From positions 186,001 through 250,000 of the forward strand of contig NZ_JRAA01000003.1 of NCBI RefSeq assembly GCF_000787395.1: a DNA stretch of 64,000 bases. Direction: 5' to 3'. Within the stretch, counting starts at the first letter, position 1. Each line of letters opens with the position of its first letter. Below, piece after piece: positions 2 through 16,934 of the stretch. Below the pieces are notes generated by a model that saw only the letters and a program-made list of their open reading frames with translations, did not search any database and had not been told where the DNA came from. This DNA comes from Solemya velum gill symbiont. Lineage in GTDB: Bacteria > Pseudomonadota > Gammaproteobacteria > Chromatiales > Chromatiaceae. The position numbers and the translations under genes are program-made.

Positions 2-847
2 ATCACTAAACTGGACACGAACGAGGTCCTCGCTAGCGTCGATTCTGACTCTCTTGCAGGGGCTGATCTCAGGGAAATGGAATTACAGGGGGCAGATCTA
101 AGGGATGCTGATTTAACCGGTGCCAATCTAACAGGCGCAAATCTTGGTGGTTCAGACCTGCGTGGCGCTAATCTCTCCAGGACGATCCTGCGCGAGGCAA
201 ACCTGGGTCATTCAAACCTGGAAGGCGCCAACATGACTGCTGCACAGTTCGGCAGCGAGTTGCGTTCGACCGCGGCAAACCTTGAGTCCTGTAATCTCGC
301 TAATGCGAACCTGAGCCATGCAGATTTCAGACGCGTCATGATGAGCAATTCAAATCTGTCCAATTCGAGGCTTGAGGGAACTAACTTGAGTTATACAGAT
401 ATGCACTCAAGTGATCTCACCAATGTTTTTGCACAGGGCTGCAGGATGATCAAGTCCAATCTTTCAAACTCAAAACTGAATGATAGTGACTTCCGTGACA
501 GCCATCTGAATGGAGCAATGTTTTTAGAGTCCGATCTCAGTAATATCAACCTGGAAAGTGTCCGCAATGACGGTTTCAGCGTGATTAATCTTGCCAATTT
601 CGATGATGCAAATATGAAGGGTGCAAAAATGCGTAATGTGCTGGCTGAGGACTGCAGAATGCGAGGAACCAACCTGACTGATGCAGATTTAAGCCATGCC
701 GTCATGAGTGGCTCTATTCTCAGGCGCGCTATTGTTACAAACGCAAATTTTGATGATGTCGAATTGGCCACTGTCACAATGACATTCGCCAATTTTTCAC
801 AAGCACTGAATGCAGATATTCCATCCTACGTACGCGATTTACGATAA
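2..847 (+). CDS. Pentapeptide-repeat protein (5' end outside window)
   Basis: The reading frame is open from base 2 and the repeats already occur before the first ATG at 77, so the gene starts upstream of the window and this is its C-terminal part. Almost the whole product is built of A(D/N)LxX-type five-residue units, which fold as a right-handed quadrilateral beta-helix in known family members. The repeats become more degenerate (S/N-rich) in the middle. No signal peptide or membrane segment is visible in this part. Pentapeptide proteins include DNA-gyrase mimics and scaffolds, but nothing here fixes a function. It ends 84 bases before an RND pump gene. Confidence 0.85.
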   Translation: MTKLDTNEVLASVDSDSLAGADLREMELQGADLRDADLTGANLTGANLGGSDLRGANLSRTILREANLGHSNLEGANMTAAQFGSELRSTAANLESCNLANANLSHADFRRVMMSNSNLSNSRLEGTNLSYTDMHSSDLTNVFAQGCRMIKSNLSNSKLNDSDFRDSHLNGAMFLESDLSNINLESVRNDGFSVINLANFDDANMKGAKMRNVLAEDCRMRGTNLTDADLSHAVMSGSILRRAIVTNANFDDVELATVTMTFANFSQALNADIPSYVRDLR

Positions 848-5334: not shown

Positions 5335-7584
5335 CTATCTACCGCATCCATACTCGATAACCTGTCCGAAGCTGATGCCCGCATCGTTGACGGGTATACG
5401 TACCGGCAGGTGAACAGTGAAGTTCTCTTCTCTCAGCAGGGAGGCTGCCAGTTCGGTCAGTACGCGGTTCTGAAAAACGCCGCCGCTGAGGGTAACATGA
5501 CTCACGCCATGACGCTGACGGATCAGTTGTGCCTTGCGCAGCAGGGTATGTGCCAGCGATGCATGAAAAGTGGCGGCGCGCTGTGCCTGTTCAGTCGAGC
5601 TGTCCGTCATCACTGCAAGCAGCGGCTGCCAGTCAGCAACAAGCATATCGTTTGATTCGCTGATATCAAGGGGCACATGCGTTGCCTTGTGATTGGCAAG
5701 GGCCTCCAGCAGCATCGCTCCCTGTCCCTCGTAGCTTGCCACGCTGCAAACACCACTTAGTGCAGCGGCGGCATCGAAGAGGCGGCCAACTGAACTGCTG
5801 CTTGGTGCATTGATGCCCTGTTCCCAGGCCTTTCTGAGCAATGGATCCTTCTCGGGTATCTGCGGGTATGGGTGGCCGGATTGCCAGCACAGTGCAGCAG
5901 CGCTGCGCCATGGTTCCCGGGCGGCCTTGTCACCGCCGGGCAGGCGAAACGGTCTGAAGCTTGCCACGCGCTTCCAGGAGCCTGGTTTGCCGAGAAAAGT
6001 TTCACCACCCCACAGCGTCTCGTCAGCGCCTAAACCGATACCATCCCATGTAAAGGCGATCACCTCCTCATGGCAGTAAAATTCATAACTGGCCGAGGCA
6101 GCATGGGCGTGGTGATGCAGAACAGTATGAACAGGCAGATTTTGCTTTTCTGCCCAGCGTGATGCGGTGTAACCCGGATGCGTATCACAAATGAGCACCT
6201 CTGCCTTCACCTGGTAAAGTTGCTGTAAATCGGCAATGGTCTCTTCGAACACCTGCAGTGCACGTGCAGTATTCATCTCACCAATGTGCGGTGAAAGTAC
6301 AGCTCGCTTGCCCCATGCCAGTGTAATGACATTCTTCATTTGCGTACCAACTGCCAGTACGGGGTGTTCAAGGGTGAATGGCAAGGCGAGTTCAAAGGGT
6401 GCGGTTCCACGGCCAAGGCGGATGGGTCTTGGCATGCCCTCGCTGATGCGAAACACGGGGTCGTCCGCCGGACGTGCGATGGGGCGATTGTGATGCAGGA
6501 AGCGATCAGTGATATGGGCAAGGCGGCGTTCGACCTCGATACCATCTGTGAGTACCGGTTCACCACTGATGTTGGCAGAGGTTGCAACCAGTGGTGAAGC
6601 AAAGCTGTCCAGCAACAAGTGATGCAGCGGACTGTAGGGAAGCATAACGCCGATTTCCCCAAGTCCGGGTGCAAGTTGTGGAGAAAGTGCCGGTAACTTG
6701 TGTTTGTCGATCAGCAGGATCGGGCGACTGGGCTGGTTGAGAAAATCTGATTCATCTTGTTCCAGTGCCAGGCCATTGGTTTCGGCAGGGAGCATGACCG
6801 CCAGTGGCTTGTCTGGGCGCGGCTTGTTTCTACGCAGTTGCTTGATCACATCATCATTGGTTGCATCACAAACCAGGTGGTAACCGCCGATGCCCTTGAC
6901 TGCAACAACGGCTCCGGATTTTAAAGCCTCGACTGTCGCAGTAATCGCCTCATCATTCCCCTCGATGGTTTGTCCGGCACGGCAAAACTGAAGAGATGGG
7001 CCGCACACCGGGCAGGCGATCGGTTCAGCGTGGAAACGCCTACTATTCGGATTCTCGTACTCCTCCTTGCACGATTCACACAAGGGGAACGTTTTCATCG
7101 TGGTGTTGGGCCTGTCGTAGGGAAGGGCTTCGATCAGGGTATAGCGGGGTCCGCACTGGGTGCAGTTGATGAAAGGGTAGCGATAGCGCAGATCAGACGG
7201 ATTTTGCATCTCTGCAAGGCAGTCGTCACACAGATAGAGGTCTGTTGGCAGGCTGATCTCGGGATGCCCTGCATCCAGACTGTTCAGAATTTCAAAGCTT
7301 TCTGTTTGTTCACAAGCGACAGCTGTATCTGACTCCAGTTTCGGCTTCGCCAGCGGTGGGTGTTCTGTGAAAACAGCACTGAGGAAATCATTCTGTGCAC
7401 TGACCGGACCCTGCACATGGATTTCGACTATCCCGACACAATTTCTGACCCAGCCGGTGAGGCGGTGTTGAGTTGCAAGTCGATAGATAAAGGGGCGAAA
7501 GCCAACCCCCTGTACCTTGCCCGAAAGAGTGATTTTCCTGGCTGAGATATCAACAGGACCTGCAGCAGGGCGGTTATCAGGCAA
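5335..7584 (-). CDS. hypF: Carbamoyltransferase HypF
   Basis: HypF makes carbamoyl-adenylate from carbamoyl phosphate and passes the carbamoyl group to HypE. The frame is open far upstream into hypD, but homology begins only near 7540. A TTG at 7584, overlapping the hypD stop by 8 bases and preceded by a purine-rich AGAAGAGA stretch, gives 749 aa, the usual length. Domains are an acylphosphatase unit (GKVQGVGFRPF, residues 22-32), four CxxC zinc pairs (C119/122, 141/144, 169/172, 191/194), a YrdC-like domain (KGIGGYHLVCDA), and a Kae1-like domain with HHHAHAAS. The TTG start is inferred; no ATG fits. Confidence 0.93.
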   Translation of the reverse strand: MPDNRPAAGPVDISARKITLSGKVQGVGFRPFIYRLATQHRLTGWVRNCVGIVEIHVQGPVSAQNDFLSAVFTEHPPLAKPKLESDTAVACEQTESFEILNSLDAGHPEISLPTDLYLCDDCLAEMQNPSDLRYRYPFINCTQCGPRYTLIEALPYDRPNTTMKTFPLCESCKEEYENPNSRRFHAEPIACPVCGPSLQFCRAGQTIEGNDEAITATVEALKSGAVVAVKGIGGYHLVCDATNDDVIKQLRRNKPRPDKPLAVMLPAETNGLALEQDESDFLNQPSRPILLIDKHKLPALSPQLAPGLGEIGVMLPYSPLHHLLLDSFASPLVATSANISGEPVLTDGIEVERRLAHITDRFLHHNRPIARPADDPVFRISEGMPRPIRLGRGTAPFELALPFTLEHPVLAVGTQMKNVITLAWGKRAVLSPHIGEMNTARALQVFEETIADLQQLYQVKAEVLICDTHPGYTASRWAEKQNLPVHTVLHHHAHAASASYEFYCHEEVIAFTWDGIGLGADETLWGGETFLGKPGSWKRVASFRPFRLPGGDKAAREPWRSAAALCWQSGHPYPQIPEKDPLLRKAWEQGINAPSSSSVGRLFDAAAALSGVCSVASYEGQGAMLLEALANHKATHVPLDISESNDMLVADWQPLLAVMTDSSTEQAQRAATFHASLAHTLLRKAQLIRQRHGVSHVTLSGGVFQNRVLTELAASLLREENFTVHLPVRIPVNDAGISFGQVIEYGCGR

Positions 7585-8713
7585 GCGTCTCTTCTCTCTC
7601 TTCTTGTGCTGCTGGTTCTCGAATGCCGGCAGACCACCAGATGCGACAGGCGCCCTCGTCGGAGACCATGCAGGGTCCAATCGGGTTGCGTGGCTTACAC
7701 GCCGTGCCGAAGAGGCGGCACTGGTTGGGATAGAGCTTGCCGAGTACGACCTGGGCGCAGTCACAGCCCGGTGGCATTTCACCGGCGCGCTTGCGTGCAT
7801 CATCTGCATAGGTCGGAAATCTCTCTCTTGCATCGTGTGATCGATAGGCTTCAGCCAACTGGTAGCCGGATGCAGGGATGATGCCGATACCGCGCCAGTT
7901 GGCATCGACGACCTGCATGGTAGTAGCAAGATGCGCCTGGGCAGACTTGTTGCCTCCCGCTCGTACCAGTTGCGGGTAACAGTTGTCGAGAAAACAGCGT
8001 CCCTCAATGAGCTGGCGCAGAGTTGAGTACATGGCTGCCAGCAGGCTCTCAGGGGTGAAACCGGCAACAGCGGCAGGAATCTTGTGATCCTTGACCACAA
8101 ACTCCCACTCCTCGGGTCCCATTACGGTAGAGACATGACCTGGGGCGATCAGTGCATCGAAACCGGGCGTGCCGGAATCGAGCAGCATGGCAACAGCGGG
8201 CCATGTCAGGCGGCCCGAGAGAAGGATGGAAAGGTTGTCAGGTACGCCTTCGGCGAGCATGGCGGCAACCGGCGCCGTGGTGGTTTCAAAACCTGCAGCG
8301 AAAAAGACCACCTGTGTACCAGGATTGTCCCGTGCGATGGAGATTGCTTCCGTGGGTGAGGCGATAGGGCGAATGTCTGCGCCCTGTGCCTTTGCCTGTT
8401 CAAGCGTGCGTGCTTCGGCCTTGGCAACATTCACAGGGACGCGCAGCATGTCGCCAAAGGCAACCAGGATAATCTCTTCATGCAGTGCGAGCTGAATGGC
8501 CTCGAAGATATCCTCTTCCGGACAGATGCAGACGGGACAGCCGGGTCCCGGTACCAGTTCAATTGTATCGGGAAGCGCCTTGCGCAGACCGGCCATGGTG
8601 ATGGAGCGTTCATGACCGCCACAGACGTTCATGATCTTTATCGGCCGTCCATCAGCTTTATCAAGTGGCAGGGCACGAATACGCTCAAGCCAGGTTTTTG
8701 CGCTTGCGCTCAT
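7577..8713 (-). CDS. hypD: Hydrogenase maturation protein HypD
   Basis: HypD carries a 4Fe-4S cluster and, with HypC, is the scaffold on which the Fe(CN)2CO unit is assembled. The 378-aa product has CGGHE (residues 31-35), GPGCPVCxCP (56-65), and the C-terminal cysteine-rich region with PPGCDC, NQC, ACKPRNPIGPC and GAC. Length and motifs are complete. It begins 3 bases after the hypB stop codon and its end overlaps the proposed hypF start, so hypB, hypD and hypF are tightly coupled. Confidence 0.97.
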   Translation of the reverse strand: MSASAKTWLERIRALPLDKADGRPIKIMNVCGGHERSITMAGLRKALPDTIELVPGPGCPVCICPEEDIFEAIQLALHEEIILVAFGDMLRVPVNVAKAEARTLEQAKAQGADIRPIASPTEAISIARDNPGTQVVFFAAGFETTTAPVAAMLAEGVPDNLSILLSGRLTWPAVAMLLDSGTPGFDALIAPGHVSTVMGPEEWEFVVKDHKIPAAVAGFTPESLLAAMYSTLRQLIEGRCFLDNCYPQLVRAGGNKSAQAHLATTMQVVDANWRGIGIIPASGYQLAEAYRSHDARERFPTYADDARKRAGEMPPGCDCAQVVLGKLYPNQCRLFGTACKPRNPIGPCMVSDEGACRIWWSAGIREPAAQEEREETLA

Positions 8714-8716
8714 CTG

Positions 8717-9556
8717 TTATGAACTGTGGGCGTGACTGTGCGTGTGCTGATGTTCGTGCTCGTGTGTGTGGTGCTTGTGTTCTGATGCGACCGGGTGTGC
8801 TTCAAGATAACTTCTTCTCTCTGCCGCCTGTTGTGCGACCCAATCGGCCCAGTCAGACATGCCCTCACCACTTTTTGACGAGAGTTCGATGATGGGTGCA
8901 GTGCTGGCGATATCCTGCAGGTAGCGCCTGGTACGCTCGGTTTTGAAGTCGTCGAGGTAAGGTAGCAGATCCGTTTTACTGATCATGACAAGGTCGGCGC
9001 TGCGGAACATGACCGGGTATTTGGCCGGTTTGTCGTCACCTTCGGGCACTGACAGCAGGGCAACATTCTGATGCTGCCCGAGATCGAAGCTCGCCGGGCA
9101 CACAAGGTTGCCGACATTTTCGATAAAAACAACGTCGTATTCCGAGAGGTCGAGATTATGCAGTGCATCGTGGATCATGTGAGCATCAAGGTGGCAGGCA
9201 CTGCCGGTTGCAATCTGGATCGCTTTAACACCGTGCTTGCGAATACGCTCGGCATCATTCTCTGTTTCCAGGTCACCCTCGATAACTGCGATTCTCAGCT
9301 TCGGATCGAGTTGCTTGATTGATGCTTCAAGCAGGGCAGTCTTTCCTGCACCGGGTGAGGACATCAGGTTGATCGCGAGGACGTTGTGTGAGTCGAAGTG
9401 CTCACGGTTGTGGCTGGCCGTGTGGTCATTCTCGTGTAACAGGCTGTGCAGTACGGTCACTGCCTCGTTGCCGCTCTCGGTCTTGGCAAGCTTGCCACCG
9501 GGTCTGATCAGTTCTTCATTGCCGGGTGTGATATTACAACCGCAGGTGTTACACAT
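8717..9556 (-). CDS. hypB: Nickel-insertion GTPase HypB with a His-rich C-terminal tail
   Basis: HypB is a SIMIBI-class GTPase that, with HypA, delivers nickel to the large-subunit precursor. I use the ATG at 9556 because it gives the canonical MCxxCGC nickel-binding start and has GGAG upstream; a frame extension to 9586 adds ten unlikely residues. The Walker A motif SSPGAGKT lies at residues 66-73. A modest His cluster follows the N-terminal CxxCGC. The unusual part is the last 21 residues, where ten histidines fall within 18 positions, alternating with E, T, S or Q. Histidine stretches for nickel storage in HypB are usually near the N-terminus. Confidence 0.96.
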   Translation of the reverse strand: MCNTCGCNITPGNEELIRPGGKLAKTESGNEAVTVLHSLLHENDHTASHNREHFDSHNVLAINLMSSPGAGKTALLEASIKQLDPKLRIAVIEGDLETENDAERIRKHGVKAIQIATGSACHLDAHMIHDALHNLDLSEYDVVFIENVGNLVCPASFDLGQHQNVALLSVPEGDDKPAKYPVMFRSADLVMISKTDLLPYLDDFKTERTRRYLQDIASTAPIIELSSKSGEGMSDWADWVAQQAAERRSYLEAHPVASEHKHHTHEHEHQHTHSHAHSS

Positions 9557-9644
9557 GGTGTTCTCCGTAATAATTCGACCTGTCACTATGACTTCAAGTT
9601 GGCGTAACAGAATTCAGTACTATTATATCAGTCATGCCTTGTCC

Positions 9645-9709
9645 TGTAGGAGCGGCGCCTTCGCCGCGATTTTCTCCCTAGCTTGTAGGAGGGGCGTCCC
9701 CGCCGCGAT
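9645..9709. repeat. Two tandem REP-like palindromes between hypA and hypB
   Basis: Two copies (9645-9670 and 9684-9709) in the same orientation share TGTAGGAG and CCGCGAT ends around a GC-rich stem (CGGCG..CGCCG in copy 1, GGGGCG..CGCCCC-like in copy 2), spaced 39 bases start to start. The layout resembles gammaproteobacterial REP/BIME elements carrying a GTAGGAGCG-type head. Copy 2 lies inside the 3' end of hypA; copy 1 is intergenic. Such hairpins often affect mRNA stability between operon genes. Confidence 0.75.
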
Positions 9710-10058
9710 TCTCAGCCGTCTGCAGTTCCACGCTCATTAATAATAGCTCATCACCGCTGATCAGTGTGGTGCGCCATTCACCACACGCCGGGCAAACCAG
9801 CTTGTTCGGTGGGACATCGCTTTCAGTTTCGCAGGCGTTACACCTGATGCGGGTGGGTAGTTCGTCAATCATTAATTCAGCATCCCTGGCAACGGTGCCT
9901 GCACTGGCAACGGGGTAGGCGTGTTTCAGCAGCTGGGGTTCAACACCAGACAGTGCGCCAAGCCCGATCGTGATGGATACAACAGATTCAGCTTGCCGTT
10001 CATGCGCAATCGCTTCGACCTGGTCAATCAGTGACTGGCATATTGCAAGTTCATGCAC
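9678..10058 (-). CDS. hypA: Nickel-insertion protein HypA
   Basis: HypA binds nickel through the N-terminal MHE motif and holds a structural zinc through two CxxC pairs, here C73/C76 and C89/C92. The 126-aa length is slightly above the usual 113-120 because the last ten residues (NRGGDAPPTS) and the stop codon are supplied by a palindromic repeat at 9684-9709. The conserved protein probably ended near residue 116 before the repeat arrived. It lies 11 bases after hypC. The 121 bases to hypB hold the second repeat copy. Confidence 0.95.
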   Translation of the reverse strand: MHELAICQSLIDQVEAIAHERQAESVVSITIGLGALSGVEPQLLKHAYPVASAGTVARDAELMIDELPTRIRCNACETESDVPPNKLVCPACGEWRTTLISGDELLLMSVELQTAENRGGDAPPTS

Positions 10059-10069
10059 TAAAGACTCCT

Positions 10070-10297
10070 TCAGCTGTCTGCTGCGAGCATCTGGTCGTAC
10101 AGTTCCCAGGCAGTTTGCGCCTCTTGTTCAGAAATTTTCTGGATGGCGTAGCCGACATGTACGACAACGAAGTCATCTACATTGAGTTCTTCCTCCTGCA
10201 TCATGAAAAGGCTGACATCGCGGCTCACCCCTTTTGCTTCACAACGGGCGGTGTAATTCTCGATCGATTTGATCTGCATTGGGATGCCAAGACACAT
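10070..10297 (-). CDS. hypC: Hydrogenase assembly chaperone HypC
   Basis: A 75-aa HypC/HybG-family chaperone starting MCLGIPM, whose Cys2 holds the Fe(CN)2CO unit with HypD and transfers it to the large-subunit precursor. It is the first gene of the leftward hypCABDFE operon, and its start faces the divergent structural operon across a 141-base spacer that carries an FNR-type site. Confidence 0.97.
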   Translation of the reverse strand: MCLGIPMQIKSIENYTARCEAKGVSRDVSLFMMQEEELNVDDFVVVHVGYAIQKISEQEAQTAWELYDQMLAADS

Positions 10298-10438: not shown

Positions 10439-10948
10439 ATGTCTATTGACAAAGAAACTACCTTGATACTCGGAGTCGGCAATACCCTCCTTACTGATGA
10501 GGGTGCAGGTATCCACGCCCTTAACCATCTTGAATCACTCTATCCCGATACACCACATCTAACCTTCCTTGATGGCGGAACACTCAGCTTCACGCTGGCT
10601 GCCTATATAGAAGAGTGCAACAACCTTATCGTTTTTGACGCCGCTGAACTTCATCAGCCTGCCGGCAGTGTGAGCGCTTTCGTCGGTGAGGAGATGGATG
10701 AGTTTCTGGGCCGTGCGAGACGCAGTGCACACGAGGTGGCCCTGCTTGACCTGATTGATATCGCACGACTCACCGGACACATGCCTGAGCATCGCGCATT
10801 GATTGGAATCCAGCCTGAGACGATCGAATGGGGCATGGAACCATCAGATGTTGTACGCGCGGGAATCGACAAGGCCCGGGACGAAGCGGTCACTCTGATA
10901 GAGCAGTGGCATCCATCAGGCGAAGAGAGAGTGGCGACAGTTGCCTAA
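10439..10948 (+). CDS. Hydrogenase maturation endopeptidase (HupD/HyaD/HynD family)
   Basis: This protease removes the C-terminal extension of the large subunit after nickel insertion. The frame is open from 10322, but the ATG at 10439 (MSIDKET) puts the conserved strand GVGNTLLTDEGAG at the usual position and gives 169 aa. Nickel-sensing residues equivalent to Glu16, Asp62 and His93 of E. coli HybD appear as E21, D67 and H98. It is the first gene of the rightward operon. Its likely substrate site, after His563 of the large subunit at 15031-16767, is present in the same operon. Confidence 0.93.
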   Translation: MSIDKETTLILGVGNTLLTDEGAGIHALNHLESLYPDTPHLTFLDGGTLSFTLAAYIEECNNLIVFDAAELHQPAGSVSAFVGEEMDEFLGRARRSAHEVALLDLIDIARLTGHMPEHRALIGIQPETIEWGMEPSDVVRAGIDKARDEAVTLIEQWHPSGEERVATVA

Positions 10949-11014: not shown

Positions 11015-11467
11015 ATGGACCAAACAGATTCAGTTATTCATTTCAACATCCAGGCCAGTGATCAGCTGACGTGGAATGTCGAGCCCTTGCTGCACGAAGT
11101 GAAACATGCGTTGGAGCGTCTCGCGACTGAGGATGAAACCTCGGTGATTGATCTGCGCAGCATTCCCCTTGCACCGGGTGAAGAGGATCGAATCCTGGAA
11201 ATCCTCGGTCTTGGTGAAGTGGTGGCAAGACTCAATGTGCTGGGTTCAAGCGATGTGGTCGAAACAGAATACAGCGGAGTATGGGTAGTCACCCATTACA
11301 ACGAAAATGAGGAGACTATCGGTCGATTCATTGAAGTGACCAGGATGCCAGAAATCCTTCGTTCACAGGCAGAAGATGTAGCCGAGGCAAGTGAGCGTCT
11401 CGCTCTTCGCCTTGAGGATGAACAGCAGGAAAAACAGACAAGTAACAAGCTAGCGGTGGAGAAATAA
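11015..11467 (+). CDS. HupH/HyaF C-terminal-domain protein
   Basis: A 150-aa cytoplasmic protein resembling the conserved C-terminal region of HupH/HyaF hydrogenase expression proteins, with the stretch SGVWVVTHYNE followed by IEVTRMPEIL near residues 88-113. Family members with two copies of the fold are about 280 aa, so this is a single-domain form. In rhizobia and E. coli such proteins help process the small subunit. It ends 2 bases before the small-subunit ATG, which supports that role here. Confidence 0.75.
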   Translation: MDQTDSVIHFNIQASDQLTWNVEPLLHEVKHALERLATEDETSVIDLRSIPLAPGEEDRILEILGLGEVVARLNVLGSSDVVETEYSGVWVVTHYNENEETIGRFIEVTRMPEILRSQAEDVAEASERLALRLEDEQQEKQTSNKLAVEK

Positions 11468-11469
11468 GC

Positions 11470-12567
11470 ATGGCAAGTCATAGCGATAAAGAGAAGACCC
11501 TTGGTGATGTTCTGCGCAGTCATGGTGTATCGCGACGCAGCTTTATGAAATATTGTGCGACCACGGCATCAATGATGGCGATGTCGCCGGCAATGATTCC
11601 GATGATCGCCGAGGCACTTGAGAATGCGAAAAAGCCCTCGGTCATCTGGCTTTCGTTTCAGGAGTGCACCGGTTGTACAGAATCCCTGACCAGGGCCGGA
11701 GCATCAACTGTAGAAAACCTCATTTTCGACAGTATCTCGCTCGATTATCACCATACCTTGCAGGCAGCCTCGGGCCACAGGGCTGAAGAGGCAAAAGAAG
11801 AGGCGATGCACGAGAATCACGGTAAATACCTGCTGGTGGTTGATGGTTCAATCCCGATGGATAATCCCGGTTATTCAACCATTGCAGGCATCAGCAACTA
11901 CGACATGCTGATGGAAGCGGCCGAGGGTGCTGCTGCAATTATCGCAGTTGGCACCTGTGCCACCTACGGTGGTCTTCCCAAGGCGAGCCCGAATCCGACA
12001 GGCGCAGTCTCCGTCAGTGATCTGATCAAGGACAAGCCGATTATCAATGTACCCGGCTGCCCGCCGATTCCGGTCGTTATCACCGGTGTGTTGACCCACT
12101 TCCTGACTTTTGGAGCCCTGCCGGAACTCGACGATCTCGGTCGCCCCAAGGCTTTTTATGGGCAGAGTATCCACGACCGCTGCTATCGCCGTCCTTTCTA
12201 CGACAAGGGCCTCTTTGCCGAGACTTTTGACGATGAAGGTGCGAAAGCGGGATGGTGTCTCTACAAGCTGGGCTGCAGGGGGCCAACAACTTACAACGCT
12301 TGCGCAACCACCAAGTGGAATAACGGCACCAGCTTCCCGATCGAGTCCGGACACCCATGCCTTGGCTGTTCTGAGCCCGAGTTCTGGGACGGTGGCGGTT
12401 TCTACAAGGCACTCTCGATTCCGACAGCTGATGTTGGAGAGACCGTGCTTTATACGGCTGCAGGTGCGGCAGCAGCAGGTGTAGCACTTGGTGCATTGAA
12501 CCGCGCAACGAAGGGAAGTGCGAACAAGGCGCACGAAAAAGTTACTCTTGAAGATCTGGAAAAATAA
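11470..12567 (+). CDS. hynS: [NiFe]-hydrogenase small subunit (Isp-type, group 1e-like)
   Basis: The Fe-S electron-transfer subunit, exported by the Tat pathway: SRRSFMK at residues 21-27 is followed by a hydrophobic stretch. Proximal-cluster cysteines begin with ECTGC (C66, C69), and later groups include GTCATYGG, NVPGCPP, and the C-terminal distal/medial cluster region CYRRPF..CRGPTTYNAC..HPCLGCSEPEFWD. A C-terminal alanine/glycine-rich hydrophobic segment (about 323-342) may anchor it to the membrane. The 365-aa length is typical. The start has GGAG 8 bases upstream. The following isp1 and isp2 identify this as the HynS/HydS type. Confidence 0.95.
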   Translation: MASHSDKEKTLGDVLRSHGVSRRSFMKYCATTASMMAMSPAMIPMIAEALENAKKPSVIWLSFQECTGCTESLTRAGASTVENLIFDSISLDYHHTLQAASGHRAEEAKEEAMHENHGKYLLVVDGSIPMDNPGYSTIAGISNYDMLMEAAEGAAAIIAVGTCATYGGLPKASPNPTGAVSVSDLIKDKPIINVPGCPPIPVVITGVLTHFLTFGALPELDDLGRPKAFYGQSIHDRCYRRPFYDKGLFAETFDDEGAKAGWCLYKLGCRGPTTYNACATTKWNNGTSFPIESGHPCLGCSEPEFWDGGGFYKALSIPTADVGETVLYTAAGAAAAGVALGALNRATKGSANKAHEKVTLEDLEK

Positions 12568-12591: not shown

Positions 12592-13251
12592 ATGAACGAA
12601 ATAGCATTACTTGAATGGGTACGTGGTACTGGTTTTCAGATTGCGACAGTGGTTCTTGTCGCGGGCGTGATAATCCGTATATTCGAAATCCTCATGTTGG
12701 GGCGCAAGAAAAATCTTGCTGAAGCCAAGGGAAGTGAATTTTCCAGTGGTATGCGAACGATCGTGTCACGATCTGTACCTGAGTCTGATTCTTTCAAACG
12801 TTCGGCATTCACAATTGTTGCCGGATACATATTCCATATCGGACTCTTCGTGACTATTTTCCTGTTTGCTCCACACATCCTGTTAATTAGCGAGTTGACA
12901 GGTCTTGGCTGGCCGGCTTTGCCGACTCCGATTGTTGATGCCGTCGCAGTTCTCAGTATCATCGCCTTGCTCGCAATCCTGGTTCACAGGTTCAATAACA
13001 AGATATTGCGTTACCTGACAACACCAGGTGACCTGTTCATCTGGTTTGTGACCATCGCGCCACTGATTACCGGTTACATCGCTTTTCACCGTATCGGTAT
13101 GAGCGGTCCAATGTTGCTGGCTGTCCATATTCTTAGTGTCGAGCTGTTGATGGTCGTGTTGCCATTCAGCAAGCTCACACACGTTTTTACAATCTTTATG
13201 GCAAGGTGGTACAACGGCGCCATTTCAGGTTATCGGGGGGTTCAATCATGA
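12592..13251 (+). CDS. isp1: Isp1, b-type cytochrome-like membrane subunit
   Basis: A 219-aa integral membrane protein with about five hydrophobic spans and histidines suited to haem b (for example FHIG near residue 81 and AFHRIG near 162), related to NarI/DsrM-type cytochromes. In the HynS-Isp1-Isp2-HynL arrangement it takes electrons from the periplasmic hydrogenase into the membrane. Its stop overlaps the isp2 start as ATGA, so translation is probably coupled. Confidence 0.9.
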   Translation: MNEIALLEWVRGTGFQIATVVLVAGVIIRIFEILMLGRKKNLAEAKGSEFSSGMRTIVSRSVPESDSFKRSAFTIVAGYIFHIGLFVTIFLFAPHILLISELTGLGWPALPTPIVDAVAVLSIIALLAILVHRFNNKILRYLTTPGDLFIWFVTIAPLITGYIAFHRIGMSGPMLLAVHILSVELLMVVLPFSKLTHVFTIFMARWYNGAISGYRGVQS

Positions 13252-14507
13252 GTGCATCACTTGAGAAGGGAGTCAACGCCCTGAAGCAGCAGGTCGATTC
13301 ATCCGTTGCAGCATTTTTCAGCAGTTGTGTGCACTGTGGCATGTGTGCGGATACCTGTCTCTTCCAGACGGAAACCGGTAACCCGGCAAGCACGCCAATT
13401 GCCAAGGCCGAGCCATTGCGTCGTGTATGGAAATCGGAATACACCCTGCTGGGCCGCATTGGAAAAATGTTCGGGCTTAGCAAGAAGGTCGATGAGAAGT
13501 TGCTGACAGAGTGGGAAACCATGGTGTATGACAACTGCACCCTGTGTGGCCGTTGCTCAATGGTCTGCCCGGTGGGTAACGATATTGCGTTAATGATTCG
13601 TAAGACCCGTGAAGGCATGGCAGCAGCCGGTCATGCGCCGGAAGGGCTGATTGGTGCAACCAACCGTTCGATCAAGATCGGCAGCCCCATGGGCGTCAAA
13701 CTGCCGGCACTGCTGGCTCAGATTCGTCACCTGGAAGAAGATACCGGTTTGAAGGTTCCTGTTGATGTCGAGGGTGCGGAATACATGCTACTGCTCTCGT
13801 CGATGGAAATTATGAATTTCCCGGAATTCATGGAGGCGATTGCAAGAATTTTCGACAAGGCTGGTGCTACATGGACAATCTCTTCGGAAGCGTTCGAGGC
13901 GACCAATTCAGGTATTCAAATCGGTGTCAGTGATCTCGCTGCCGAATTGGTACAGCGAGTTGTTGATGCGGCCGAGAAGCTGAAAGTGAAGACTGTTATC
14001 AGTCCTGAATGCGGACATGCCTACATGGCGATTCGCTGGGATGGACCAAACCTGGTCGGTAAGGCCTTTAGTTTCAAGGTGCGTCATATTCTCGAGGTAC
14101 TTGATACCTTTCGCGAGGAAGGACGCCTCAAGCTTAAAGACAAGATTAGTGAGAAGGTTACCTATCACGACCCATGTCAGATTTCACGTCGTGGGGGTGT
14201 GATTGATCAGCCACGCAGGTTGATTGACCTGTTTGCTGATGATTTTGTCGAGATGCCGGATGCCGGAAAGATGAACTGGTGTTGCGGCGCTGGCGGTGGC
14301 GTCAGTTCCAACGAGCGTGCAGACGAAGTTCGTTTACAGGTATTCAAGCGCAAGAAAGCGCAGCTCGAAGAAGTCCAGCCTGATGCGATTATCAGTGCCT
14401 GTTCCAACTGCCGTATCCATATTGAAGATGGACTCGAGGAGTATGGAATGGATATTCCGTTAATGAGTCTGACAGAGACGCTGGCTGAACACCTGGCCGA
14501 TGATTAA
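13248..14507 (+). CDS. isp2: Isp2, HdrD-like iron-sulfur subunit
   Basis: A cytoplasmic electron carrier resembling the heterodisulfide reductase HdrD/DsrK family, 419 aa from the ATG at 13248, which overlaps the isp1 stop. Two 4Fe-4S motifs lie at C27/C30/C33/C37 and C97/C100/C103/C107. Downstream are CCG-type cysteines in PECGHA, DPCQISRRGG, WCCGAGGG and CSNC, which in HdrD/HdrB bind a non-cubane cluster. The domain content suggests electrons from H2 can reach a disulfide or quinone partner. Confidence 0.93.
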   Translation: MSASLEKGVNALKQQVDSSVAAFFSSCVHCGMCADTCLFQTETGNPASTPIAKAEPLRRVWKSEYTLLGRIGKMFGLSKKVDEKLLTEWETMVYDNCTLCGRCSMVCPVGNDIALMIRKTREGMAAAGHAPEGLIGATNRSIKIGSPMGVKLPALLAQIRHLEEDTGLKVPVDVEGAEYMLLLSSMEIMNFPEFMEAIARIFDKAGATWTISSEAFEATNSGIQIGVSDLAAELVQRVVDAAEKLKVKTVISPECGHAYMAIRWDGPNLVGKAFSFKVRHILEVLDTFREEGRLKLKDKISEKVTYHDPCQISRRGGVIDQPRRLIDLFADDFVEMPDAGKMNWCCGAGGGVSSNERADEVRLQVFKRKKAQLEEVQPDAIISACSNCRIHIEDGLEEYGMDIPLMSLTETLAEHLADD

Positions 14508-14548
14508 CGGTTTAATTGCTGAAAACGAATACTCTGGAGCAAGATAAA

Positions 14549-15007
14549 ATGAACCAAATAACCAGTGACGAAGAGTTCAGGAAGGCTTTGCAAGATCTGA
14601 ACGAAACACAGCAGAGAGTCATTGCTGCCAAATTTGTGGAGCATGTTCTGTCGTTGTCAACTGACGAGCGAGTCGGTCGCGTGGTAAAAGTTGCTGCTGA
14701 TGAAAGTGCCTCGCAGGATGAGCTTGCAGCTGCACTGAAATCAGCAAAGGCAGCAGCCATCGAAAGCCATACGCGTTGTGGTTCTGAAGGCGACTGGACC
14801 GAACAGGCCGGTTATTTTGTTGCACGCGCAGCAGTTGCTGCGGTTACGCCGCAGGCACAGGCAAAAAAGAACCCGGTATGGAGTGCGGCGATGAGCAGTC
14901 GCATGGCCCGCACCAGTATGTTAATAGATGATGAGCAAAGTGCAGGAAAAACGCACTCTGAAAATGAGTGGCAGTACGACACCCTGTCTGAATATTTACA
15001 GTCATAA
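14549..15007 (+). CDS. Unknown 152-aa protein between isp2 and the large-subunit gene
   Basis: Not recognised. From the ATG at 14549, with GGAG 11 bases upstream, it encodes a 152-aa soluble, helix-prone, alanine-rich protein with no signal peptide, no membrane span and a single cysteine near residue 79. The 42-base and 24-base spacings to isp2 and the large-subunit gene place it firmly in the operon. Described Isp operons often read hynS-isp1-isp2-hynL directly. A role as an assembly or specificity factor is a positional inference only. Confidence 0.8.
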   Translation: MNQITSDEEFRKALQDLNETQQRVIAAKFVEHVLSLSTDERVGRVVKVAADESASQDELAAALKSAKAAAIESHTRCGSEGDWTEQAGYFVARAAVAAVTPQAQAKKNPVWSAAMSSRMARTSMLIDDEQSAGKTHSENEWQYDTLSEYLQS

Positions 15008-15030: not shown

Positions 15031-16767
15031 ATGAGTACATCCGGCGGAAACGAAAGAATTGTAGTTGACCCGATTACCCGAATCGAAGGCCATCTGCGCA
15101 TTGAAGCGGAGATGGATGGCAACAAGATTGGCAGCGCCTACTCGTCAGGAACAATGGTGCGTGGTATCGAGACAATCCTGAAGGGACGCGATCCGCGAGA
15201 TGCCTGGGCATTTGCACAGCGTATCTGTGGTGTGTGCACGCTGGTACACGGGCTTGCATCGATCCGTTCGGTCGAGAATGCGCTGAGTTACAAGGTTCCG
15301 AAGAATGCGGATCTGATCCGCAACCTGATGAGCGGCGCGCAATACATCCATGACCATGTCATGCACTTCTACCACCTCCATGCACTCGACTGGGTTGACG
15401 TGGTATCAGCGCTGGATGCCGATCCGAAGGCGACTTCCGAACTGGCACAGTCACTCAGCAACTACCCGCGATCCTCTCCCGGCTACTTCTCCGATATGAA
15501 GAAGAAGCTGAAAGGCTTTGTCGAGGCAGGGCAGCTGGGCATTTTTGCCAAGGCATACTGGGGCCACCCGGCCTACAAGTTGCCACCTGAAGCGAACCTG
15601 ATGGCAGTTTCCCACTACCTCGATGCACTCGAGTGGCAGCGTGATGTGGCACGCCTGCACACGATCTTTGGCGGCAAGAATCCGCATCCCAATTTTGTTG
15701 TCGGCGGTGTGCCCTGTGCGATTGATTTGAACTCCGATTCTGCCATCAATGCCAAGAAGCTTGCGCAGGTGCAGGAGATCATCAACAAGATGAAGGTCTT
15801 CGTCGAGCAGGTCTATATTCCTGATACGCTGGCGATTGCCGGTTTTTACAAGGACTGGGGCAGCCGTGGCGAGGGCCTGGGCAACTTCATGACCTATGGT
15901 GACTTCCCGTCCAACGGTATGGAAGATCCTTCCGGCTTCATGCTTCCGGCAGGAGCAATTCTCAATCGCGACCTGAGTAAAATCCACGAGGTCGATATGC
16001 ACGCCCCCGATGAGATTCATGAATACGTCTCTCACTCCTGGTATGACTACGAGGGTGGCAAGGATACCGGGCTGCATCCGTATGATGGTGAAACCACCTT
16101 CAACTACACCGGGCCAAAACCGCCTTATAAACACCTCGATGTTGACCAGGCATACTCGTGGCTCAAGTCACCGCGTTGGAAAGGCCATTCAATGGAGGTC
16201 GGACCGCTGGCACGCGTCCTGATGCTCTATGCAACAGGTCATGAACAGACCAAGGACCTGGTCGGCATGACGCTCAGCAAGCTCGATGTGCCGGTTGAAG
16301 CGCTCTTTTCAACACTTGGCCGTACTGCGGCACGCACGCTGGAGACCAAAATCTTCGCCGATGCCATGCAGGGCTGGTTCGATGACCTGGTTGCCAATAT
16401 CAAGGCTGGCGACACAAAAACCTTCAACGAGGTGTTGTGGGAGCCTTCATCCTGGCCGAAGAGCGCACAGGGCGTCGGTTTCATGGAGGCGCCTCGCGGT
16501 GGCCTTGCTCACTGGATTGTTATTGAGGACGAGACCATCAAGAACTACCAGGCGGTTGTTCCCAGTACATGGAATGCCGGCCCGCGCGACTCAAAAGGAC
16601 AGCCTGGTGCCTACGAGGCAGCGCTGGAAGACAACCATGAACTGCACGATCCGGAGCAGCCGATTGAAATCCTGCGCACAATTCACAGTTTCGATCCCTG
16701 CATTGCCTGCGCAGTGCACGTGAGTGACTCGGATGGTAATGAACTGATTAATGTAAAGGTGAAATGA
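15031..16767 (+). CDS. hynL: [NiFe]-hydrogenase large subunit precursor
   Basis: The catalytic subunit that binds nickel-iron. Length is 578 aa. The N-terminal motif RICGVCTLVH (C66, C69) and the C-terminal motif DPCIACAVH (C557, C560, ending at H563) give the four cysteine ligands. The 15 residues after H563 are the propeptide that the HupD-type protease removes. It has no signal peptide and would be exported bound to the small subunit. Its stop overlaps the next small gene as ATGA. Confidence 0.97.
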   Translation: MSTSGGNERIVVDPITRIEGHLRIEAEMDGNKIGSAYSSGTMVRGIETILKGRDPRDAWAFAQRICGVCTLVHGLASIRSVENALSYKVPKNADLIRNLMSGAQYIHDHVMHFYHLHALDWVDVVSALDADPKATSELAQSLSNYPRSSPGYFSDMKKKLKGFVEAGQLGIFAKAYWGHPAYKLPPEANLMAVSHYLDALEWQRDVARLHTIFGGKNPHPNFVVGGVPCAIDLNSDSAINAKKLAQVQEIINKMKVFVEQVYIPDTLAIAGFYKDWGSRGEGLGNFMTYGDFPSNGMEDPSGFMLPAGAILNRDLSKIHEVDMHAPDEIHEYVSHSWYDYEGGKDTGLHPYDGETTFNYTGPKPPYKHLDVDQAYSWLKSPRWKGHSMEVGPLARVLMLYATGHEQTKDLVGMTLSKLDVPVEALFSTLGRTAARTLETKIFADAMQGWFDDLVANIKAGDTKTFNEVLWEPSSWPKSAQGVGFMEAPRGGLAHWIVIEDETIKNYQAVVPSTWNAGPRDSKGQPGAYEAALEDNHELHDPEQPIEILRTIHSFDPCIACAVHVSDSDGNELINVKVK

Positions 16768-16934
16768 TGAAAAAACTTCTGACACTTGCATCCACTCTTG
16801 GAAGCAGCGCTGCCATGGCGCATCCCGGTCATGCCCTGGGTGAAGCGATGCATGGTTTCTGGCATGCAGAGCACATTCTGCTGTTGCTGGCGATTGCAGT
16901 CGTTGCTGGCCTGGTAGCCTGGCACAAGCGCTGA
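16764..16934 (+). CDS. 56-aa His-rich small membrane protein coupled to the large subunit
   Basis: The ATG at 16764 overlaps the large-subunit stop; a second in-frame ATG follows at once. The peptide has a lysine-then-hydrophobic signal-like start ending AMA, a histidine-bearing middle (HPGH, MHGFWHAEH), one hydrophobic span (residues 36-52) and a WHKR end. HPGH is the mature N-terminus motif of HupE/UreJ nickel transporters, but those have several spans. This could be a small nickel-handling or hydrogenase-anchoring subunit. Function is not established, but length, signal, coupling and in-operon position argue for a real gene. Confidence 0.6.
   Translation: MMKKLLTLASTLGSSAAMAHPGHALGEAMHGFWHAEHILLLLAIAVVAGLVAWHKR

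Follow-up and report, generated by a model that had tools for sequence, protein, structure and literature searches.

HupE/UreJ proteins are described as six-helix transporters that carry the motif HPXXGXDH in helix 1 (PMC7689651). Other membrane proteins that handle metals include the Ang-HupE/UreJ-2 "anglerases", which have two domains, a folded metal-binding domain and a full permease (PMC12537917), and CbiN of the cobalt transporter CbiMNQO, a small membrane protein whose segment on the outer face is required for cobalt to be taken up (PMC7689651). One account counted 62 bacteria that have nickel enzymes but lack nickel transporters, whether known or of unassigned function (PMC2667541). Here, we describe a 56-codon gene that overlaps the end of hynL in the gill symbiont of Solemya velum, and whose product is probably a one-helix relative of HupE/UreJ. 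Short forms of this kind are called minis below.

Hydrogenase operon and the 56-codon gene

The window (the whole stretch of DNA analyzed, 64,000 nucleotides) holds a hydrogenase operon in the order hynD-like protease, HupH-like, hynS, isp1-like, isp2-like, 153-codon open reading frame (ORF), hynL, and mini-HupE-like gene. The genes hypC, hypA, hypB, hypD, and hypF lie upstream of it on the opposite strand.

5335 to 8100, minus strand: hypF open frame, true start inside (TIGR00143 over cut-off, frame residues 190-915)
7577 to 8713, minus strand: hypD (TIGR00075 over cut-off)
8717 to 9586, minus strand: hypB, nickel incorporation GTPase (TIGR00073 over cut-off)
9678 to 10058, minus strand: hypA, nickel metallochaperone (TIGR00100, 84.3 bits, just under the cut-off of 88.1)
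10070 to 10297, minus strand: hypC (TIGR00074 over cut-off)
10439 to 10948, plus strand: hydrogenase maturation protease, hynD-like (TIGR00072)
11015 to 11467, plus strand: HupH-like maturation protein (PF04809)
11470 to 12567, plus strand: hynS, hydrogenase small subunit (TIGR00391, 440 bits)
12592 to 13251, plus strand: isp1-like membrane cytochrome b protein (TmcC/HmcE matches below cut-offs)
13248 to 14507, plus strand: isp2-like Fe-S/CCG protein (PF02754 over cut-off; DsrK/HmcF/TmcB below cut-offs)
14546 to 15007, plus strand: conserved ORF of 153 codons between isp2 and hynL (no family match over cut-off; homologue in 9 of 37 loci)
15031 to 16767, plus strand: hynL, [NiFe]-hydrogenase large subunit (PF00374, 798 bits)

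The homologue of the 153-codon ORF in genome G426 sits downstream of hynL. The isp1- and isp2-like genes (12592-14507) are placed between hynS and hynL, which contrasts with the hup operon as far as the account in PMC4287430 sets it out.

The 56-codon gene and its parts are as follows.

16764 to 16934, plus strand: mini-HupE-like gene, 56 codons (ATGA overlap with hynL; kept frame; dN/dS 0.11)
16764 to 16820, plus strand: predicted signal peptide, residues 1-19, with an AMA end before His20 (from sequence; A19 and H20 invariant in alignments A2 and A4)
16821 to 16832, plus strand: HPGH, residues 20-23 (His20, His23), predicted mature N-terminus (from sequence; H20 invariant in 10 of 10 rows of A4)
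16833 to 16925, plus strand: long helix, residues 24-54, with a single membrane span at about residues 38-54 (from sequence and AlphaFold2)
16851 to 16874, plus strand: H-X5-E-H motif (His30, Glu36, His37; H30 and H37 invariant in 10 of 10 rows of A4)

The peptide of 56 aa is MMKKLLTLASTLGSSAAMAHPGHALGEAMHGFWHAEHILLLLAIAVVAGLVAWHKR; its ATG stands at 16764, its stop codon ends at 16934, and the start overlaps the hynL TGA (16765-16767) as ATGA, with AAAGGTG immediately 5' of the start codon. MHGFWHAEH forms residues 29-37, and a single hydrophobic stretch follows the signal. AlphaFold2, run on the single sequence, modeled residues 24-54 as one helix (mean pLDDT, 81.4; block means of 91, 97, and 92 across residues 31-56), which sets residues 30, 34, and 37 on a common side. 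An earlier note on this DNA had proposed a 56-aa frame whose ATG overlaps the hynL stop, with a signal, HPGH and MHGFWHAEH motifs, and one membrane span; all of these are present, and the frame is conserved in the gill symbiont of Solemya elarraichensis.

The 56-codon frame at 16764-16934 is a real gene under purifying selection. In the S. elarraichensis symbiont (G014, locus L009) the frame is 91% identical and free of indels; 12 silent and 5 replacing changes (41.7 and 126.3 sites, Nei-Gojobori) give a dN/dS of 0.11 (Fisher p = 3.6e-5), with 0.04 for hynL of the same pair. The stop position is kept, as TAG, the sequence beyond it diverges, and H34 is replaced by Tyr. Among 11 pairs of minis tested, which share members, dN was below dS in 10 and p was <0.05 in 9; the exception was G125/G122 (dN/dS, 1.06). 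Just after the stop in the S. elarraichensis symbiont there is a hairpin with 15 uninterrupted core pairs and a T run (−24.1 kcal/mol; z, −5.9; 0 of 200 shuffles as good), which is a likely terminator, the peptide gene being the final one ahead of it. The equivalent sequence of the window folded no better than shuffles. A promoter and terminator scan returned nothing useful in the window, and the L009 hairpin detected by folding was also absent from that scan.

Relation to HupE and UreJ

Alignment A4 comprises ten minis (G000, the window genome, with G014, G346, G427, G526, G333, G566, G173, G097, and G187) and has four invariant columns (A19, H20, H30, and H37); alignment A3 comprises six full HupE proteins. 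In hhalign, the A4 profile, which includes the window peptide, matched A3 at 96.7% with a score of 58.9 over the first 56 HupE positions; when the mature columns were shuffled and the signal peptide kept, the best of 60 controls scored 28.6. Without the signal peptide, the score was 39.8, against at most 25.6 in 60 shuffles. Judged by these profiles, the mini family is shown to be homologous to the N-terminal module of HupE/UreJ. The window peptide itself had no PF04955 (HupE_UreJ) match in Pfam up to E 10 (gathering cut-off, 23 bits), and its relation to HupE therefore rests on the ten-row profile. Eight minis exceed the PF04955 cut-off (G427, G190, G097, G187, G173, G252, G094, and G192), all matching inside the stretch 2-53 of the 179 model positions; lower scores were obtained, for example, for G566 and a form from genus g47. 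The signature region of the window peptide is HGFWHAEH, in which both histidines are spaced as in HPXXGXDH, Glu stands for Asp, and Pro and Gly are missing. Minis of relatives read HPFFGAEH and HPFVGLEH at the same place.

No NCBIfam match to the ten seed minis was better than E 0.013, PDB sequences gave no match to the seed profile up to E 1, and tblastn of the G187 mini in plasmids gave none. Weak single Pfam matches of minis (DUF7649, MerE, HupE_UreJ_2, and TrbC) were taken as chance. CbtB is a one-helix subunit of CbtAB; its model, which Pfam presumably contains, was not among the matches of the window peptide up to E 10. On the question of repeated origins of minis from a local HupE, the 42 minis were each compared with minis of other genera and with 39 full HupE N-termini: the better score went to a mini for 34 and to a HupE N-terminus for 7, with 1 tie.

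Distribution of minis

Searches with the A4 profile covered 210 genomes at the level of the order (limit, E 0.05) and 369 at the level of the class (limit, E 0.01). The order search gave 94 rows, 32 of them short, meaning an open frame of at most 145 codons (a cut set after the list had been viewed), with G173 added, whose frame extends outside the peptide. Thirty of the 32 lie in nickel-enzyme clusters (27 hydrogenase, 3 urease) in an order that is rich in hydrogenases to begin with, as 160 of its 210 genomes have a hynL match; when the five seeds among them are left out, 25 of 27 short rows are in hydrogenase or urease clusters. The short rows of G096 and G200 were rejected as such genes. 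The longer rows numbered 62, and a HupE-like frame was present in 39 of 42 loci drawn from such rows and from PF04955 matches.

The class search gave 14 short rows, including G566, whose frame runs on. After removal of six seeds and of G122, already counted, 6 of 7 were in hydrogenase or urease clusters: G283, G310, and G480 beside hynL, G218 with urease, and G252 and G431 near hydrogenase maturation genes only. The row of G290 was rejected as a frame with stops.

Altogether 42 minis were collected, five of them in urease clusters, with lengths of 56-88 aa (several starts chosen by us; G092 has a start codon other than ATG, and the contig ends within the G041 mini). A motif search after the first four mature residues found H-X6-H in 28 (21 as H-X5-[DE]-H); 13, all from genus g47, have H-X3-[DE]-H instead, and one urease form has neither. 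All 42 have a mature N-terminal His, although this His guided our choice of starts and cleavage sites, which makes the count partly circular. In 41 of 42 (all but the mis-started G092) no Lys or Arg stands between the cleavage site and the helix, and a basic tail usually follows the helix; together these suggest an N-out, C-in topology.

The region after hynL

Forty loci, whose hynL matches ranked best in the class search below that of the window itself (63-88% identity; G497, which runs off its contig, was left out), were scanned for 1.5 kb after hynL. With a profile that was built with the six clear minis included, six loci had a clear mini, two a degenerate mini, six a full HupE, and 26 neither; fewer than 1.5 kb follow hynL in G491 (171 bases), G375 (626), and G362 (948), so a mini could be missed there, above all in G491. 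The scan also detects minis in which different residues flank the motif (G310, G508, and G566). Loci with neither mini nor HupE include G223, G407, and G537, as well as G426, which has after hynL a frame that we take, by recognition from sequence, to be NicO-like. Selenocysteine in the G223 hynL, for which one TGA was reported, was rejected, as an ordinary DPCIAC motif is present. isp1 was present in 32 of 37 hynL loci scanned; in G333, one of the six with a clear mini, neither isp1 nor isp2 was found in the operon. The degenerate ORFs of G218 and G508 lie at L042 +112..300 and L075 −39..293 relative to the hynL stop, and are perhaps on their way out or a further variant.

The presence of minis at hynL is patchy. 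Within genus g51, a full HupE follows hynL in G163, G165, G171, and G172 and a mini in G168 and G173, and G165 has an additional mini at a second hydrogenase. G553 has no mini and G346 of the same genus has one. Eight further loci, including G021 (hynL 86% identical), showed no clear mini or HupE, with one weak match (G186). The earlier note had made conservation of the frame in relatives that keep the operon the check on its proposal; run here, this check found the frame kept in some relatives and absent from most hynL loci examined, which makes the peptide an accessory and not a required subunit. A structural subunit of the Isp type should be present wherever hydrogenase genes are, and neither form occurs in 26 of the 40 loci.

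Nickel and cobalt uptake and a second candidate

In the window genome, neither PF04955 (E limit, 0.01) nor NicO (E limit, 0.001) gave a match. CbiM reaches 34.7 bits (cut-off, 23.1) but in a frame with an in-frame TAG (C1:873575-874174), possibly a lost cobalt/nickel transporter gene. Of 41 mini-bearing genomes, 14 are without a PF04955 match and 7 more have only the mini itself; CbiM is over the cut-off in 30 and NicO in 5, so other nickel or cobalt uptake often exists. Searches for HupE_UreJ, NicO, and CbiM found at most the mini in G014, G041, G094, G310, G427, and G526, some of which are incomplete assemblies.

A second candidate of 83 codons lies in the window genome between urtE and urease genes (L192 5763-6014; C4 approximately 455762-456013). 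It has a signal peptide and, ahead of one hydrophobic stretch, AHGGH and HAITNNQH. UrtE and UreC were confirmed as neighbors by family match; a further neighbor, without an NCBIfam match, we take by recognition to be UreD. Similarity is weak (E 0.87 with the 56-aa peptide; 19.5 bits with the A4 profile), there was no Pfam match, and the frame did not reach E 0.05 in the order search. It is a possible mini-UreJ and the weaker candidate of the two.

Interpretation

The reading that we favor, at a probability of about 0.6, is that the window peptide derives from, or is related to, the HupE/UreJ N-terminus, has one helix, and captures metal on the periplasmic side for nickel-enzyme maturation. Its ATGA overlap should yield the peptide in step with HynL by translational coupling. 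The peptide would then be exported by Sec and cleaved to leave His1, the predicted mature form beginning HPGHALGEAMHGF. One helix would hold it in the inner membrane, with a short lysine/arginine tail on the cytoplasmic side. The mature periplasmic part would offer the N-terminal HPGH (His20, which becomes His1, and His23) and, at the outer end of the helix, His30, Glu36, and His37. A divalent transition metal, most likely Ni2+, would be bound at the outer face of this membrane, and entry of the bound nickel would be favored, leading to HypA/HypB-dependent insertion into HynL. Other routes are conceivable, namely an oligomer that passes nickel itself, handover to another permease, or metal buffering.

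Minis cluster beside nickel enzymes; from this clustering and from HupE homology we infer the metal, its transport, and a partner, and the nickel handling put forward in the earlier note is the likeliest role. The "minimal HupE-like" character that it also suggested is supported by the profile homology, by the full HupE in the same slot of some relatives, and by the urease association. Some features speak against the favored reading: H34 is not conserved, the window peptide shows neither the Pro and Gly nor the Asp of HPXXGXDH, and the g47 forms have H-X3-[DE]-H. The same applies to the missing PF04955 match of the peptide itself, to the 26 of 40 hynL loci with neither form, to the CbiM matches in 30 of 41 mini-bearing genomes, to the general richness of the order in hydrogenases, and to the position of DUF6732 beside a chelatase-like gene. 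That the mature peptide of approximately 37 residues homo-oligomerizes, rebuilding the HupE entry site and pore from identical single helices, is a speculative and rather unlikely version; if true, the oligomer would be one of the smallest dedicated transition-metal permeases, recurring in place of full HupE next to hydrogenases and ureases.

Several other explanations compete with metal capture for nickel enzymes. The clusters that minis occupy belong to nickel enzymes, and it is accordingly unlikely that the peptide handles cobalt, zinc, or copper instead, or that it protects the periplasmic enzyme by sensing or buffering metal, even though a histidine that follows a signal peptide at the N-terminus can in general bind transition metals (PMC12537917), some HupE proteins carry cobalt (PMC7689651), and the similar DUF6732 adjoins a chelatase-like gene. 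The peptide could instead be a structural or anchoring subunit, as the earlier note also proposed, whose helix docks the hydrogenase heterodimer or Isp1 and whose histidines serve a cofactor or a contact. Its gene overlaps hynL, many minis directly follow hynL, and the single helix probably faces the periplasm, where the mature enzyme sits. The homology, however, is to a permease, most hynL loci examined are without a mini, and 5 of the 42 minis belong to urease clusters, urease being soluble and cytoplasmic and in need of no anchor; an anchoring role is thus improbable, and that part of the proposal is not supported.

Decay is a further possibility, the peptide then being a functionless remnant of a full HupE. 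In some relatives a full HupE does stand where the mini would be, the G218 and G508 forms are degenerate, and presence is patchy, but the window gene has a dN/dS of 0.11, and 9 of 11 pairs give p <0.05. Downstream of the minis, no credible trace of later helices was found in 23 loci (best E, 0.67); together with the selection, this makes relic status quite improbable. Lengths of 56-88 aa with a mostly basic tail also argue against a relic, as do the 21 of 41 genomes without a HupE_UreJ match apart from at most the mini. A chance ORF might be suspected, given the short length and an overlapping 80-aa frame on the opposite strand; it is rejected with near certainty by the silent-site bias in the peptide's own frame, the kept length, and the homologues in the same position.

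Overlooked or annotated as hypothetical, one-helix proteins that resemble HupE are a candidate for part of the gap represented by the 62 bacteria mentioned above, and raise the question of how little of a six-helix permease suffices for nickel supply. No description of such a protein was found in the available parts of the literature searched (on HupE variants, DUF6732, and small membrane proteins of hydrogenase and urease operons).

Comparison with known systems

The only Pfam resemblance of the window peptide is to DUF6732 (PF20506; 20.5 bits; E 0.00044; cut-off, 27), a model that at E up to 1 also gives sub-cut-off matches in 6 of 14 control genomes. Profiles of the minis and of DUF6732 compare at 95.0%. 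The two share size, signal peptide, an H-x-G-H mature end, and one helix; DUF6732 has an AGHxH motif and an acidic tail, whereas the window peptide has AEH and a hydrogenase operon. DUF6732 genes (L089-L095, from 7 of 299 phylum genomes) stand in 7 of 7 cases directly before a chelatase-like gene and in none beside a hydrogenase. The chelatase-like gene has a His-rich end, and we take it, by recognition from sequence, to be a cobalt chelatase. This neighbor is a hint of cobalt, and DUF6732 may be the cobalt counterpart of the minis. Membership of the window peptide in DUF6732 was rejected on its score below the cut-off and its different neighbors.

On an Alteromonas macleodii plasmid, a gene between hynL and hypC (L198 10897-11112) encodes WP_012516859.1, a 71-aa protein annotated as hypothetical. 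It shares with the window peptide the slot, the signal peptide, and one hydrophobic stretch, and its mature end is HPGHQGDH; it differs in being without the H-X5 stretch (scoring 15.7 bits against the mini profile), and it has no HupE_UreJ match in Pfam up to E 1. Genes of this type occur in 7 Alteromonas plasmid records and 1 Glaciecola plasmid record. The A. macleodii HynSL system has been expressed in E. coli and Synechococcus (PMC3102683), and the construct lists consulted from that paper do not name the 71-aa gene.

CbiN and the window peptide are both small membrane proteins with an outer-face segment, as CbiN is described in PMC7689651; CbiN differs in having two helices and in working with CbiM, and was not among the window peptide's Pfam matches. 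In the anglerases, too, the N-terminus behind the signal peptide is a His, which is offered to a membrane part of HupE type (PMC12537917). The closest comparison is with HupE/UreJ (PF04955) itself. HupE/UreJ proteins have about six helices, whereas the window peptide has one after the signal, and the later HGxxH region of HupE (F125, A126, H129, G130, and H133, invariant in A3) is absent from it. Signal peptide and mature N-terminal His are common to both, and the H-X5-D-H at the start of HupE/UreJ helix 1 resembles the H-X5-E-H of the window peptide. Like HupE/UreJ genes, those of the window peptide and its relatives stand in hydrogenase or urease clusters.
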